Source: a virus
Virus record (IMG/VR): IMGVR_UViG_3300042557_000410
Coordinates: 1-25,049 of that record
Length of the DNA: 25,049 nucleotides
Direction: 5' to 3' (one strand)
Shown in pieces: positions 5,413 through 23,449 of this stretch. A program made the position numbers and the translations under genes. The notes under the pieces were generated by a model that saw only the letters and a list, made by a program, of their open reading frames with translations, was not told the origin of the DNA and searched no databases. The stretch's first letter is position 1; each line of letters opens with the position of its first letter.

Positions 5413-5461
5413 GTTTTGACGGTTCGCGCGCCTTCTATTGACCGAAGCAAAACACACGACC

Positions 5462-6847
5462 ATGACGATCTCACTCTGCGTAATTTGTGGCAACGAGGCG
5501 CACCACATCGAGGCAATGCTCAAATCGTTCGTCGGACTGATCGACGAACTCTCACTCGTCCGCGCCATCGGCTCAAAGGAGCCGGACAACACCGAGCGAA
5601 TTGCGCGCGGGTGGTGCATCGAAAACGGCGTCAATTTCGTTTTCAGCGAGTATCACAACGGAGTCACGGCGCAGGCTTGGAAGCACGTCGATTCGTTCGC
5701 CAAGGCACGCAATCAGGCTTTCGCGTATGCGACCGGCGATTGGCTAGTCTGGGCGGACTGCGACGACGTCTTGGCCGAAGCCGACGATCTCAAAAGCAAG
5801 CTCGCCGAACTCTCCGAGGAGGTGCTGATGGTGCGCTGTCCTTACGACGTGCGCGGCACCGGAAAGAAGCTGCAACGCGAGCGGTTCATCCGTCGCAGCG
5901 CGTTTCAATCTGGGCGTGTCTGGCATCACGACGTGCACGAAAACCTTCTGCTGTTGCCCAACGACCGTCACGTCGAATGGTCGACGCCGGTCTGGAGGCA
6001 TGAGCCAGCTTGCATAAAACAAGATAACCGCAAGCGTAACCTTGCTATTCTAGGTCGCAGCGTAGGCGAAGCGGCGACCCAGTATTTTTATATCCACCAA
6101 GAGCACTACTGCTCCGGCAATAAACCAGCCGCCGAACAGTTCGGGCGCATCGCGCTTTCGTTTCCGAACCTCGATGACTCTTTCCGGTACGAGGTTCAGC
6201 TCAACCTTGCGCGCATCTCGGCGAGTCGTCGCGAGTCCATGCAGTTCGCAATGGGAGCGCACGGCGTCTTTCCGTGGTGCCGCGAAGCCATCGCCTCAAT
6301 TATCATGCTGGCGTTTGAGAAGAACGACGGCAAGCGCGCGGCGTGGTGGGCGTCTCGGATGCTGACCTTGCCCGAACCGGCGCAGAAAGATCGTCCGTGG
6401 ACGCACGAATCGAAGTGGTACGGCTGGGCTGGGCATGATCTCGCCGCGCGTGCATATCGCTTGGCTGGCATGGTGGCGGACGCGAACGCGCTCCAACTGG
6501 TTTATCATAAGCACACCGAGCCGACCATCCGCATCACGCAAAAGACGCTCGGCAACTCGACGCGTTCTGTTTCATTCCGCGACGCTTGGCTCTCGACCGC
6601 GGCACGGCCTGAAATCGTCGAACACTATTTCCAGATCAAGGCCGACGACGCCGAGACGTTGGCGATGGCGAAGCAGTTCTTGCATTACGTCGGCGAGCCT
6701 ACTGAAACGCCTCGCGCCGTGATTCGCGTGAACGTCGAGGACGGCATGGTGCCGCCGAACAACTGGGACGAACGCGTGCTGACGTGCGGAGAAACCGTGA
6801 TTGATGCGGAGAACATCGAGCGAATCCTTGGAGCTAAAAAGCCATGA
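5462..6847 (+). CDS. Family 2-type glycosyltransferase with helical-repeat C-terminus
   Basis: Residues 1-110 match a GT-A family 2 glycosyltransferase: ISLCVICGNEAHHIEAML (the usual I-S-L-C-x-I-x-x-x-N-E start), KARNQAFAYATGDWLVWADCDDVL with DCDD as the metal-binding DxD motif near residue 100, and then an R-R-x-x-x-x-G-x-x-W-H-H-D-V-H-E-N-L element typical of family 2 enzymes that carry TPR domains. The rest (about 190-440) is helical-repeat-like. It should transfer a sugar from a nucleotide sugar; the acceptor is not known. It lies between the capsid terminator and the neck genes, an unusual place suggesting a virion protein as acceptor, though DNA or host glycans are alternatives. I use the ATG at 5462; an in-frame TTG at 5438 is less likely. 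The stop overlaps the next start by ATGA. Confidence 0.8.
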   Translation: MTISLCVICGNEAHHIEAMLKSFVGLIDELSLVRAIGSKEPDNTERIARGWCIENGVNFVFSEYHNGVTAQAWKHVDSFAKARNQAFAYATGDWLVWADCDDVLAEADDLKSKLAELSEEVLMVRCPYDVRGTGKKLQRERFIRRSAFQSGRVWHHDVHENLLLLPNDRHVEWSTPVWRHEPACIKQDNRKRNLAILGRSVGEAATQYFYIHQEHYCSGNKPAAEQFGRIALSFPNLDDSFRYEVQLNLARISASRRESMQFAMGAHGVFPWCREAIASIIMLAFEKNDGKRAAWWASRMLTLPEPAQKDRPWTHESKWYGWAGHDLAARAYRLAGMVADANALQLVYHKHTEPTIRITQKTLGNSTRSVSFRDAWLSTAARPEIVEHYFQIKADDAETLAMAKQFLHYVGEPTETPRAVIRVNVEDGMVPPNNWDERVLTCGETVIDAENIERILGAKKP

Positions 6848-7488
6848 TTCCAGAACCCGCAATCGTCGTCTGCACGAAGAACGCGCGTTGCCTCGACGTG
6901 ATGAGAGCGTCGATCAAAGCCTACGTTCCGCACGGCATCCGCACCTACGTTTCGCACGGACTCGGCCCGACCTTCGGCGAGGCTTACAACGAGGCGGCGC
7001 GCATCGCGTTCAAGGAACACGATCAACTCGTGATCTGCAACGACGACATTGTTTTCACTCCGACGACGTGGGCAAAGCTCATGGGCGACGTGAAATTACT
7101 TCGCGAGCATTATCCAGACCTCGGCTGGGTGGCGACTCGCTCGGACTACGCGCGCGGCGAACAGAACATCCGCAGCGGACGCGGGCAAATTGACTTCCTG
7201 CGGTTCACGTCGGAGCGAAACATTATTCAAGCAAGCGTCATCGCGCCAATCTGCGCGTGGATTCACCGCGACGCATGGGTGGATTTCCCTCCGCTCAACT
7301 GGTTCTCCGACGACGTGCAATGCCTCGACATGAAGCGACCGCATTTTATCTCGCGCGCCTACGTTCACCACGTTGGAAGCCAGACCTGCGGCAACGACGC
7401 CAAGAAGTGCATGGACGACGCCGAACCTTGGTTGCGCGAGAATCGGCCCGAGTTGCACGCGCGGTGGTATTTAACGAAAGGCGCATAA
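6844..7488 (+). CDS. Second glycosyltransferase-like protein (GT-A fold)
   Basis: This 214-residue protein starts with a short beta strand, AIVVCTKNARCLDVMRASIKAY, and has LGPTFGEAYNEAAR followed by DQLVICNDDIVFTPTTWAKLM. That arrangement (helix with N/E, hydrophobic strand, then NDDI as the DxD-like metal site near residue 61-64) is found in GT-A glycosyltransferases of family 2 type. Later residues include WIHRDAWVDFPPLNWFSDDVQCLDM and HHVGSQTC, matching the acceptor-side Asp and C-terminal His of that fold. It is translationally coupled (ATGA) to the preceding larger glycosyltransferase, so the pair likely acts in one pathway, for example addition of successive sugars. Substrates cannot be read from sequence. 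Confidence 0.7.
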   Translation: MIPEPAIVVCTKNARCLDVMRASIKAYVPHGIRTYVSHGLGPTFGEAYNEAARIAFKEHDQLVICNDDIVFTPTTWAKLMGDVKLLREHYPDLGWVATRSDYARGEQNIRSGRGQIDFLRFTSERNIIQASVIAPICAWIHRDAWVDFPPLNWFSDDVQCLDMKRPHFISRAYVHHVGSQTCGNDAKKCMDDAEPWLRENRPELHARWYLTKGA

Positions 7489-19195: not shown

Positions 19196-19852
19196 ATGGA
19201 CACGAACGTAAAAACTGAAACTCAAGTCGCGGTTCAAGACACCGCTCCGAAAGCTCAAATCAGCTTCGGCAATCAGGGCGTGCAACTCGCCAGCATCGAC
19301 GAGGCTTTCCGCTTCGCCAAGGCAGTCGTCGCAAGCGGCTTCGCTCCGCGCGGCATGGAGAAACCGGAGAGCGTTATGATTGCGATTCAGCTCGGCATGG
19401 AGCTAGGCCTGACGCCAATGGCCGCGCTGCAAAACACGGCGGTCATCAACGGACGGCCCGCGATCTACGGTGACGCCGCTCTCGCTCTGGTTCGCGCCAG
19501 CGGCCAGCTCGAAAGCTACGCCGAGCAAGAGATCGGCGAGGCCGGCAAAGATTCGCACGGCTACAAGATCACTGTGAAGCGCAAAGGATTCGACGCCGCC
19601 TCGGAGACGTTTACGACCGCCGACGCCAAGAGTGCGAAGCTCTGGGGCAAGGCTGGCCCTTGGTCAGACTTCCCGAAACGGATGCTCAAGTTCCGCGCTC
19701 GCGGCTTTATCCTTCGTGATCAGTTCGGCGACATTCTGAAAGGCTTACGCACAGTCGAGGAAGCGCGCGACATCGCGCCCGAGATTAACGTGACGCCGCT
19801 CGCCGAGAAAGTCGCAGGCGGATTGAGCGACGCGATTGGAGGTGCGGCATGA
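19196..19852 (+). CDS. RecT-like single-strand annealing protein
   Basis: The protein (218 aa) contains GVQLASIDEAFRFAKAVVAS, then ESVMIAIQLGMELGLTPMAALQNTAVINGRPAIYGDAALALVRASG, KSAKLWGKAGPWSDFPKRML and KFRARGFILRDQFGDILKGLRTVEEARD. The I-Q-x-G-x-E-L-G-(L/M)-(T/S)-P-M-x-A-L-Q-x-x-x-V-I-N-G-R-P core and the L-K-x-R-A-R-G-F-x-L-R-D block are typical of a phage protein group commonly assigned to RecT-like annealing proteins. It binds ssDNA and anneals complementary strands. It opens the recombination operon with RecE-like nuclease and RusA-like resolvase downstream, which supports the role. The leader is long, A/C-rich and SD-less. Exact subfamily is uncertain. Confidence 0.68.
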   Translation: MDTNVKTETQVAVQDTAPKAQISFGNQGVQLASIDEAFRFAKAVVASGFAPRGMEKPESVMIAIQLGMELGLTPMAALQNTAVINGRPAIYGDAALALVRASGQLESYAEQEIGEAGKDSHGYKITVKRKGFDAASETFTTADAKSAKLWGKAGPWSDFPKRMLKFRARGFILRDQFGDILKGLRTVEEARDIAPEINVTPLAEKVAGGLSDAIGGAA

Positions 19853-20109
19853 GCACACCAATCGATGATGGTGGGCCAGCGTTTCCTCGCGCAGGATTTC
19901 TTTCAGAGATTGAAACACCCGAGCAAGTAATCGCCCAGTATGAAAACAAACCCGAACAGGGCATGACCTTGCGAGATTACTTTGCTGGTCAGGCTTTAGC
20001 TGGCATCCTTTCGTCTGACAACAAACCAGAATGTGACGACAGAAAAGCCGAATGGGCATATAGTCTAGCCGACTCCATGCTATTCTTTCGCAAGGAGGCC
20101 AACACATGA
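19849..20109 (+). CDS. Conserved small phage protein of unknown function (86 aa)
   Basis: The sequence DDGGPAFPR near the start, then QGMTLRDYFAGQALAGIL and a C-terminal WAYSLADSMLFFRKE, is a recurrent composite in small phage early proteins (G-G-x-A-F-P with M-T-L-R-D-x-F-A-x-x-A-L). No biochemical function is known to me. A good Shine-Dalgarno site, ggaggt, precedes the ATG by 6 nt, and the start overlaps the annealing gene by ATGA. It belongs to the recombination operon. Confidence 0.7.
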   Translation: MSTPIDDGGPAFPRAGFLSEIETPEQVIAQYENKPEQGMTLRDYFAGQALAGILSSDNKPECDDRKAEWAYSLADSMLFFRKEANT

Positions 20110-20327
20110 ACGTCCTTGGCCAAGCCATCCGTCGCTCTGACGTGTACGACCGGAGCCGACTCTACAAACCCGAGCGGCGCGTCCTTGAACGGATGAAGTC
20201 GCATCACACAAACGAGAAAGGCGAGCGCGTAGATTCACACGGTCGATACGTTGGCCACGGTGACATTGACCGCGGACTCAACTTTTTTTTCAGCAAGCGA
20301 ATCCACAATCAATCGAAAGAAACATGA
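20106..20327 (+). CDS. Small basic hypothetical protein (73 aa)
   Basis: The product is rich in Arg, Lys and His (RRSDVYDRSRLYKPERRVLERMKSHH) with KGERVDSHGRYVGHGDIDRGL and a terminal FFFSKRIHNQSKET. Basic charge suggests nucleic-acid contact, but I recognise no family. The start has one of the best Shine-Dalgarno sites in the window, aaggagg at 20092-20098 with a 7-nt spacer. ATGA overlaps link it to both neighbours. A run of eight T (20283-20290) inside the gene encodes Phe residues. Confidence 0.5.
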   Translation: MNVLGQAIRRSDVYDRSRLYKPERRVLERMKSHHTNEKGERVDSHGRYVGHGDIDRGLNFFFSKRIHNQSKET

Positions 20328-20620
20328 ACGACAACGATCTCAAACAAGCAGCAGTTATTAACGCGGCCACGGAACAATTCCGAGGCTTGCTCGAAACGCA
20401 CTTCAAACAAATCGCTAAGGCGGCGCAAGAGTCCTTCATCGAGGACGAGAATCAGACCGAGCCGAAAGCCAAGTGCGCTTTCTCGGTGGAGTGGGACAGC
20501 CTCGCGGCGGCGCCAAAGATCAACGTCAAGGTCAGTTGGTCGGTGCGCTTCAAAGACGAAGCAGAGTGCGAAATCGACCCGCTGCAATCTAAGTTTAAAC
20601 TGGAGGACGCCGATCTGTGA
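20324..20620 (+). CDS. Hypothetical protein (98 aa)
   Basis: The N-terminal half is helical (LKQAAVINAATEQFRGLLETHFKQIAKAAQESF) and the C-terminal half is strand-rich (KCAFSVEWDSLAAAPKINVKVSWSVRFKDEAEC), ending DPLQSKFKLEDADL. No known motif is visible. It is coupled to the previous gene by ATGA and to the next by GTGA. It is between the annealing and exonuclease genes, so a recombination accessory role is possible from position alone. Confidence 0.5.
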   Translation: MNDNDLKQAAVINAATEQFRGLLETHFKQIAKAAQESFIEDENQTEPKAKCAFSVEWDSLAAAPKINVKVSWSVRFKDEAECEIDPLQSKFKLEDADL

Positions 20621-20739
20621 ACTCAATCCGCAGACTGCTCGGCTGGCTTTGCGAATGGGCAACGCTCATTCTATTCTCGATTTTGCTCATCGTGATCTGG
20701 CCGTTCATCTGCGACTCCGAGGACAAAAAAGATGAATGA
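20617..20739 (+). CDS. Very small membrane protein (40 aa)
   Basis: The product has a single hydrophobic helix at about residues 9-31 (LCEWATLILFSILLIVIWPF) flanked by Arg residues before and an Asp/Glu/Lys tail after (CDSEDKKDE), which predicts an inner-membrane protein. The GTG start at 20617 is supported by a ggagg site at 20602-20606, 10 nt upstream, and by the 4-nt overlap with the previous stop. It ends 8 nt inside the exonuclease gene. Function unknown. Confidence 0.5.
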   Translation: MNSIRRLLGWLCEWATLILFSILLIVIWPFICDSEDKKDE

Positions 20740-21559
20740 ATCAATCCAAGACTACCACTCAAACACGGCAATCAGTCACTCGAAACTAGAGTGCTACCGC
20801 CGCCGACCCGCGCTCTACTACAAGAAGTATATCGCCAAGACGCTCGCCCAACCGGACGAGTCCACGGCATTTCGACTAGGCAGCGCGGTTCATTGCGCCA
20901 TCCTAGAGGAGAAAGAGTTTGCTGCGCGCTACGTTCAGAAACCCGATCTCGACCGACGCACAAAGGAAGGCAAGGCGGCATACACCGAGTTTGCAGCGCA
21001 GCACGAGGGCAAAACTCTGCTCGATGCCGACGAACTGGCGCAGGTCGTGGCGATGCGCGAGGCCGTGGCGGCACATCCAATCGCCTCGCAGCTCCTCGCG
21101 GATGGTATGCCAGAAGTGACATGGCGCAAGGAACAGAAGAACGCTCTTGGCGCGCTGCAATGCCGCACGGACTGGTTCAGCTCGGTGGGCTGCGAACTAA
21201 CGAACGGCGAGCCTTACGTGCTCGACGTGAAGACCGTCGAGAGTTTGGACAGCGACGCGTTCCGCAACTTCGAGCGCGCCGCGTTCTCCTACGGCTACCA
21301 CCGGCAAGCTGGGTTTTATTTGCCGCTCATCAACGAAGTCTATGCGCGGCCAGTCTCTCGGATGTATTACGTGGCTGTGGAAAAGTGCGAACCCTACGGC
21401 GTCGCGGTCTATAAACTCAGCGACGATGCAATCGCCCGCGGGCAAGACGAGAACATCGCCGATCTGATTCGCCTCAAGCGCAGCATCGAGGATAACAACT
21501 GGCCCAACATTGAACCAGTCCTGCACGAACTCGCGCTGCCGGCGTGGTACAAGTCATGA
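20732..21559 (+). CDS. Exonuclease VIII / RecE-like nuclease (PD-(D/E)XK)
   Basis: The start, YHSNTAISHSKLECYRRRPALYYKKYI, with FRLGSAVHCAILEEKEF and PDLDRRTKEGKAAYTEF, is typical of the RecE C-terminal nuclease family (DUF3799/exonuclease VIII). The catalytic core is visible: Asp of RTDW near residue 146 and the D-V-K-T motif near 166, followed by YGYHRQAGFYLPLI. It should degrade one strand of dsDNA ends to expose ssDNA for the RecT-like protein. It is 275 residues, about the size of the minimal RecE domain. Start ATG 20732 has gagga 9 nt upstream. Its stop overlaps the next start by ATGA. Confidence 0.82.
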   Translation: MNESIQDYHSNTAISHSKLECYRRRPALYYKKYIAKTLAQPDESTAFRLGSAVHCAILEEKEFAARYVQKPDLDRRTKEGKAAYTEFAAQHEGKTLLDADELAQVVAMREAVAAHPIASQLLADGMPEVTWRKEQKNALGALQCRTDWFSSVGCELTNGEPYVLDVKTVESLDSDAFRNFERAAFSYGYHRQAGFYLPLINEVYARPVSRMYYVAVEKCEPYGVAVYKLSDDAIARGQDENIADLIRLKRSIEDNNWPNIEPVLHELALPAWYKS

Positions 21560-22460: not shown

Positions 22461-22553
22461 ATGACAATTCAAACTTTAGCCAGCCAGTCGCGCAGAGGCA
22501 TTTCGTGGTGCCAATTTTCACCTGCGCGGTTGGTTGGCTTTTTGAATTTATGA
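22461..22553 (+). CDS. Possible 30-aa leader ORF through hairpin
   Basis: An ATG at 22461 opens a 30-codon frame (MTIQTLASQSRRGISW ... GFLNL) that runs through the whole large hairpin and ends at TGA 22551-22553, overlapping the ATG of the replication gene by 4 nt, exactly as most genes here are coupled. There is no Shine-Dalgarno site for it. Translation of this frame would unfold the hairpin and deliver ribosomes to the downstream start. The overlap is seen; real translation is unproven. Confidence 0.35.
   Translation: MTIQTLASQSRRGISWCQFSPARLVGFLNL
22466..22548 (+). terminator. Large hairpin / terminator-like inverted repeat before replication gene
   Basis: An 18-bp stem pairs 22478-22495 (agccagccagtcgcgcag) with 22522-22539 (ctgcgcggttggttggct), with three G-U pairs; a further 8 bp (aattcaaa at 22466-22473 with tttgaatt at 22541-22548) extend it after a small internal loop. 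A small apical hairpin (ggca/tgcc) tops it. The right arm runs into TTTTT at 22539-22543, so it looks like an intrinsic terminator. It ends just before the ATG at 22550, so it would act as an attenuator for the next gene. Other roles (operator, replication structure) are possible. Confidence 0.65.
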
Positions 22554-23449
22554 ACTGGATAAACATTCAAACCAACACTCTGCGCTCGCCAGAGTTCATC
22601 GGCTCCGACCCGATCTCTCGCGGCACTTGGCTCTCGGTGCTTGGCTACTGCTACGAGCAAGAAAACGGTGGGCTGATTACCGACTGCAAGAACTGGAAAG
22701 ACCGACAATGGCAGCAGATTTGTGGCGTCACGCGCGAGGAGATCGACGGCTCGACGCATCTCATGCAATGGCGAGATAACGACTTGCTGGTCTGGAATTA
22801 CCCCACCGAGACGGAGGACGAGATCAGGCGCAAGCGCGAAGCCGGACGCAAGGGAGGCCAAGCACGAACCCAAGCAAAGATCGAAGCAGCAAAGGCCAAC
22901 GGAGCGAAGCATAACCCAAGCACAACCCAAGCAGAACCCAAGCAGGAACCCAACGAAATAGAAAAGAAAAGAAAAGAAAAGAAAGCAGAGAGCGAGGCTT
23001 CCGCCCCGCCGCCCGCCTTTTCTCTGGAAAACGATTCCGACGATGACAAGAAACCACAAAAGCAACCCAAGCAGACCGACGCCGAATGGCTCGCCGACCT
23101 TGCGACCTCGCCAGCATACCGCGGCATCGACATTCGACGCGAGCACGCCAAGGCACTTGTCTGGGCTGCGGCCAACAAGAAAACGATGAGTCGGCGCCGT
23201 TTCGTGAATTGGATTAACAAGTGCGAGCCAACCATGGGGCAGCAAACGACCAGCGCATCAATTTCGACCTCGTTGCCAGAACCGAACGGCTGGCGCGCAT
23301 GGGTGAACGACAACGCGCCTGATTCCGTTTACGCGCGAGGCGGCACACGCGAGGGCGAGCAATGGTCGGCCTTAGACCGCACGACGCAGGACTGGCTCAC
23401 GAAGCAGACCGCGCGAGCGGAACAATTTCAGCACAGGAAACAAAACTAA
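22550..23449 (+). CDS. Replication-organiser-like protein, contains candidate origin
   Basis: Starting at ATG 22550 the protein has 299 residues. The N-terminus (TLRSPEFIGSDPISRGTWLSVLGYCYEQENGGLI) and a following helix-rich part (QWQQICGVTREEIDG) resemble the winged-helix start of phage replisome organisers and related replication-initiation proteins; then RRKREAGRKGGQARTQ is basic. The middle (about residues 105-180) is low complexity, Lys/Glu/Pro-rich. The C-terminal third contains DAEWLADLATSPAYRGIDIRRE and a Trp-rich end (GWRAWVNDNAPDSVY) that could contact a helicase loader. The call comes from layout plus iteron-like repeats in the gene, as in lambda O; no catalytic motif identifies it. 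No Shine-Dalgarno site. A further upstream in-frame GTG at 22505 is less likely because it lies in the hairpin. Confidence 0.55.
   Translation: MNWINIQTNTLRSPEFIGSDPISRGTWLSVLGYCYEQENGGLITDCKNWKDRQWQQICGVTREEIDGSTHLMQWRDNDLLVWNYPTETEDEIRRKREAGRKGGQARTQAKIEAAKANGAKHNPSTTQAEPKQEPNEIEKKRKEKKAESEASAPPPAFSLENDSDDDKKPQKQPKQTDAEWLADLATSPAYRGIDIRREHAKALVWAAANKKTMSRRRFVNWINKCEPTMGQQTTSASISTSLPEPNGWRAWVNDNAPDSVYARGGTREGEQWSALDRTTQDWLTKQTARAEQFQHRKQN
22867..23073 (+). repeat. Iteron-like direct repeats (candidate replication origin)
   Basis: The 10-mer aacccaagca occurs exactly at 22867-22876, 22913-22922, 22924-22933, 22935-22944 and 23064-23073, with a degenerate copy (aacccaacga) at 22947-22956. The middle copies are spaced 11, 11 and 12 nt. 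Exact copies lie in all three codon phases of the host gene, encoding different residues (for example NPS, TQA, PKQ), so selection is at the DNA level. This resembles the iterons of lambda ori inside gene O. Confidence 0.65.
22955..22985 (+). other. Purine-rich (GAAAA)n tract beside iterons
   Basis: Directly after the iteron cluster is a purine run with one T (22959) that contains four tandem GAAAA units at 22961-22980 and then gaaag. It encodes Lys/Glu residues. An A-rich tract next to iterons is where the lambda origin unwinds; the same role is proposed here. It also could be simple low-complexity coding. Confidence 0.5.

Follow-up and report, generated by a model that had tools for sequence, protein, structure and literature searches.

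A probable origin of phage replication within the coding region of its putative initiator

Can a row of short direct repeats inside a phage gene be the place where replication starts, or does it only reflect the protein that the gene encodes? This question was raised by a stretch of 25,049 nucleotides from a virus (IMG/VR record IMGVR_UViG_3300042557_000410, positions 1 to 25,049), which is called the window here. A sequence-only reading had noticed repeated 10-mers within one gene, and had regarded them as the phage replication origin and the gene product as the iteron-binding initiator. From comparison with relatives and from structure prediction, we consider it very probable that an origin of phage replication lies in the window, inside the gene that encodes its own initiator.

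We searched the 25,049-base record for the unit AACCCAAGCA. Five exact copies were found, all on the plus strand (22867, 22913, 22924, 22935 and 23064), together with a degenerate sixth at 22947; all lie inside the gene, where the sequence-only reading had placed them, and the rest of the record contains none. When one mismatch was allowed, there were 7 matches against 1.4 expected, a number equalled by none of 100 dinucleotide shuffles. The array was also the sole cluster of the record with at least three exact 9-mers in 250 nt. The core spacings are 11, 11 and 12 nt, and the claimed 11-nt spacing of three copies was thus found at 22913, 22924 and 22935. The five copies lie at 1, 2, 1, 0 and 0 modulo 3 in a gene whose frame is 2 (ATG at 22550), so all three codon phases are represented. 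Redrawing the codons synonymously with the protein fixed gave five copies in 0 of 20,000 genes, with a maximum of 3, and the claim that the copies are no protein repeat was thereby upheld. The units are 9–10 nt direct repeats without an inverted partner.

The GAAAA tract described by the same reading does follow the array directly (22955–22985). The 30 bp from 22955 are the least stable in the gene and rank 42 of 25,019 in the record. The AACG junction (AACG-GAAAGG) between array and tract recurs in much of the family, and 67 of 71 family members have the purine maximum of the whole gene within their linker. The coordinates are collected in Table 1.

Table 1. Features of the putative initiator gene and of the proposed origin within it.
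Feature	Position	Strand	Basis or remark
Putative initiator gene, 299 aa (N-terminal domain, linker, C-terminal module)	22550..23449	+	ORF; structure predictions; family architecture
N-terminal winged-helix domain (predicted), codons 1–95	22550..22834	+	AlphaFold2; proposed iteron-binding domain; no Pfam family
Outlying upstream copy, AACCCAAGCA	22867..22876	+	exact; possible auxiliary iteron
Iteron unit 1, AACCCAAGCA and 1-nt spacer	22913..22923	+	9 core positions invariant in 20 sequences
Iteron unit 2, other codon phase	22924..22934	+	11 nt downstream of unit 1
Iteron unit 3, third codon phase	22935..22945	+	11 nt downstream of unit 2; looser conservation than units 1–2
Terminal degenerate unit, AACCCAACGA (terminal AACCCAACG)	22947..22956	+	at junction to purine tract
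A-rich purine tract (GAAAAG repeats)	22955..22985	+	low stability; proposed DNA unwinding element
Outlying downstream copy, AACCCAAGCA	23064..23073	+	beside C-terminal module
C-terminal module, exchangeable in the family	23072..23446	+	one N-terminal family is joined to several unrelated C-terminal groups

Conservation differed among the copies. The terminal copy at 22947 is looser in relatives than units 1–2. The 22867 copy is kept only partly: it reads AGCCAAGCT in one relative (L026), is absent in another (L041) and is sometimes shifted by 12 nt. The 23064 copy is present also in L005–L008, which have another N-terminal domain and lack the array. Because this copy follows the C-terminal module, it is probably not an iteron and not part of the origin, and the reading of all five exact copies as one origin was rejected for 23064. 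The likely core is formed by the units at 22913, 22924 and 22935, the terminal unit and the purine tract.

Within the N-terminal clade of the window gene, the repeats are kept along with the protein. This clade (SH-aLRT 96), which was chosen without the motif, contains 15 rows, and the array was found in all 15. In units 1–2 (codons 122–128), synonymous changes occurred in 0 of 662 codon comparisons, compared with 34% in codons 1–95. When five more distant members, which were picked by the motif, were added, the values were 0 of 1,190 and 39%; both totals count pairwise comparisons and not independent events. Only the eleventh base of each unit varies freely, and it is the second base of a codon in unit 1, the first in unit 2 and the third in unit 3. 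Hence the amino acid may change where the DNA core permits it, and within the core even silent changes are missing. Because the core shows no synonymous change while the spacer varies even at non-synonymous positions, these alignments indicate that selection on units 1–2 acts on the DNA. In the records of 11 relatives, the 9-mer was found at the same gene and nowhere else. Many other subfamilies have repeats that keep the reading frame, spaced 12 nt, and selection on DNA and on protein are not separable there; for 31 of the 71 family members, no more than 5 of 100 synonymous shuffles did as well as the actual repeats.

The protein was then compared with known families and folds. Its start (MNW) is conserved in relatives. 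The N-terminal 115 residues, folded by AlphaFold2 with an alignment of 45 sequences, gave a predicted winged helix (pLDDT 92.6) with helices at 21–37, 51–58 and 62–67 and wing strands at 72–75 and 78–81. Residues 120–173 of the low-complexity linker are predicted to be disordered in the full-length model, and array and purine tract are the coding sequence of this segment. The pattern is thus one of helically phased 11-nt direct repeats followed by a purine-rich tract of low stability, both within the coding region of a linker predicted to be disordered. The 299-aa product had no significant match in Pfam or PHROG, a Pfam scan of 48 aligned N-terminal domains (E 0.1) gave only weak low-complexity matches, and a sequence search of the PDB with the protein gave nothing meaningful. 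By structure, the N-terminus showed only weak winged-helix similarity to the PDB (best Foldseek E-value 0.13). The N-terminal domains of the staphylococcal plasmid Rep proteins 4pql, 5kbj and 4pt7 were among the top rows, with Z of 4.4–5.5, tied with unrelated winged helices. Among viral structure models, the N-terminus matched phage helix-turn-helix proteins, a ‘replisome organizer’, DUF1376 and Lin1244. The C-terminal module is proposed to be the contact with the helicase or primosome.

Relatives of the gene are encoded in 126 viral-contig stretches, in three genomes that are all Verrucomicrobiota MAGs, and in three Akkermansia phages. For two of these phages, Chambord and Chantilly, a published list gives induction as prophages of A. 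muciniphila (PMC10197239). The hosts of the window phage are probably Verrucomicrobiota bacteria. The next gene in relatives often encodes a DnaB helicase, an IstB/DnaC-like AAA+ protein or a Toprim primase-helicase, and the neighbour is DnaB-like in two Akkermansia prophages that are listed as induced. The gene of the window is followed by a methyltransferase gene, not by that of a helicase or loader; a methyltransferase gene lies downstream in L004 too.

By analogy with lambda ori (PMC7466680) and pSK41 Rep (PMC5703833), a mechanism can be proposed. The N-terminal domain would bind to adjacent AACCCAAGC units along the same face of the DNA helix, and the bound complex would melt the adjacent A-rich tract. 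The C-terminal module may then bring in the replicative helicase or its loader, and theta replication would start at the array and tract. Because no helicase or loader gene adjoins the gene of the window, the helicase must be assumed to come from the host or to be encoded elsewhere in the incomplete genome. The sequence-only reading is thus supported in its main part, that of origin and initiator, by the predicted winged helix, the switching of repeats described below and the neighbouring genes, and probably fails for the 23064 copy. Of the checks it had suggested, the expected frequency of the unit spoke for it, and GC skew over the window showed no clear switch and was uninformative on the origin. 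The sequence-level findings that it had named as refuting did not turn up: the rest of the record has no 10-mer, and the 15 clade members with this N-terminus all retain the array.

We also scanned the viral contigs for the repeat itself, using two units 11 nt apart as the query to avoid selection by protein. There were 59 stretches with this pattern, compared with 1 for the reversed pattern and 8 when the distance was set to 13 nt; since some contigs are near-copies, not every one of the 59 counts as independent. The family of the window gene accounts for 40 of them. Another 11 fall in other phage initiator genes: three are DUF1376 by Pfam (L125, L137 and L154), five more are of the DUF1376 sequence type by eye, one is Lin1244 (L128), and two belong to PHROG replication-initiation or DnaD-like families (L124 and L127). 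The remainder consists of two contig-edge fragments of similar genes (L151 and L159) and six unrelated stretches. As a separate observation, a long 11-nt array of ATACCCATGGG/ATAACCCACGG follows two AACCCAAGC units in the different phage replication protein of L124 (1507–1700).

The array could instead be an operator, through which the protein or another regulator controls its own or downstream genes without any start of replication. Iteron-type sites are frequently autoregulatory as well, and the winged-helix domain occurs in regulators such as CRP. However, the array is some 360 nt into the gene and not at a promoter, and is followed by the purine tract of low stability; in relatives the gene stands beside that of a helicase, loader or primase, and most of the repeat pairs found beyond the family belong to other genes of phage replication initiation. 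We consider an operator without origin function improbable.

If the array is an origin bound by the N-terminal domain, then the type of repeat should depend on this domain. In five distant relatives (L039, L040, L046, L049 and L053) the unit is of the CAAAGC type, with register and 11-nt spacing unchanged; the copies have thus changed together, and the linker peptide is almost wholly altered. Nine others (L005–L008 and L107–L111) have a C-terminal module close to that of the window and a different N-terminus. Their AACCCAAGC array is absent, and GTAAC units spaced 12, 12, 12 and 11 nt are found; in L108 this array was equalled by 0 of 20,000 shuffles. Conversely, L030–L034 have an identical N-terminus with two different C-terminal modules, and the array is kept. 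These sequences indicate that the repeat type goes with the N-terminus; binding of the repeats by this domain would lead to such a pattern. An exception is L096, which has AACCCAAGC units although its N-terminus groups in a clade mostly with another repeat type. Since the array lies in the linker, the recognition domain and its target move together as one cassette.

Several other repeat forms were seen in the family. Palindromic AACCNACGTNGGTT-like sites occur in the linkers of L022, L023, L059, L097 and L101, Akkermansia phages included, and GAAGCACAGCTTC-like 12-nt repeats in other subfamilies; the half-sites AACC and AAGC recur across repeat types. At about 4388–4430 of L036, and similarly in L030–L038, TAATAG repeats (AACGTAATAGTAATAGTAATAG...) stand after the array in a shifted reading frame, and they resemble the DnaA-trio, an element of TAG/TAA trinucleotides.

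The exchange of domains suggests another explanation, namely that the repeats are a recombination boundary for domain swaps between phages, maintained through frequent exchange and not through protein binding. Domain swaps do happen at the linker. However, the repeats are part of the N-terminal side and differ where it differs, unlike a shared exchange sequence, and both the concerted change and the preference for 11-nt spacing (59 stretches against 8 at 13 nt) favour protein binding, which makes this explanation very unlikely. The chance that a repetitive protein linker or slippage during replication produced the repeats as a by-product is negligible: the linker is indeed of low complexity and predicted to be disordered, but the copies encode three different peptides, and for the core array of the window clade this explanation was ruled out by the codon phases, the synonymous shuffles and the variable non-synonymous spacer. 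It may still apply to the subfamilies with in-frame 12-nt repeats.

The embedded origin that we prefer resembles known systems in several respects. In lambda, the central part of gene O contains iterons together with an AT-rich tract used for unwinding (PMC7466680). The window is similar in that repeated sites are kept as DNA inside the coding region of a putative initiator, that an A/T-rich tract of low stability stands directly beside the iterons, and that a helicase or loader gene follows in many relatives. However, the printed sequences of lambda-type iterons (PMC7466680) show inverted symmetry and a length of about 18 bp, whereas the units of the window are 9–10 bp direct repeats 11 nt apart without dyad, and a methyltransferase gene takes the place of the loader or helicase gene next door. 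No significant O-like match in Pfam or PHROG was found for the window protein, and profile models may miss a distant relative.

The Rep protein of pSK41, a staphylococcal RepA_N plasmid, has a winged-helix N-terminus that binds boxes central in its own rep gene; the segment encoded by these boxes is a linker, and the C-terminus contacts primosome parts (PMC5703833). A predicted winged-helix N-terminus, central repeats in the gene and a linker there are also found in the window. In the chimera pPR9, N-terminus and origin were replaced as a unit (PMC5703833), which is a direct precedent for the swaps of N-terminus and array in this family. However, neither the window protein nor any of the 48 aligned N-terminal domains matched the RepA_N model of Pfam (PF06970, E 0.1), the similarity to the RepA_N fold is weak at the Z values given above, and the system of the window stands in a phage context. 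The DUF1376 and Lin1244/Lin1753-type phage replication proteins are alike in the structure matches of the N-terminus among viral models, and the linkers of some DUF1376/Lin1244-type members contain the same AACCCAAGC pair with its 11-nt spacing; however, the Pfam models of DUF1376 (PF07120) and Lin1244 miss the N-terminal family of the window. A literature search on in-gene origins tied to DUF1376 or Lin1244 found nothing relevant, which does not exclude that such work exists. Without being a demonstrated member of lambda O or RepA_N, the window protein most likely works like them.

A general rule could be that the linkers of several phage initiator families, which are polar, of low complexity and often read NP-TQ-KP and then ERKGKER-like runs, are three-frame readings of embedded origins, with an 11-bp phased AACCCAAGC core shared across the unnamed Verrucomicrobiota-phage family, DUF1376, Lin1244 and DnaD-like proteins; we are slightly inclined to accept it. 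If it is true, the origins and compatibility groups of uncultured phages would be readable from sequence alone. If the shared AACCCAAGC iteron holds, it would account for the odd repetitive linkers in many phage replication proteins and would give a simple search rule for phage origins. For the present family, a probable replication origin is placed in an uncultured phage group from its letters only, a function is proposed for proteins annotated as hypothetical even in isolated Akkermansia phages, and the joint swap of recognition domain and origin would be a natural experiment on the co-evolution of initiator and target.

Some other genes of the window were noted. A RecT-like annealing protein and an exonuclease VIII-like gene (19196–21559), upstream of RusA and the putative initiator, form a recombination module adjoining the replication module. 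Two glycosyltransferase-like ORFs (5438–7488) were recognized by eye among the head and tail genes.
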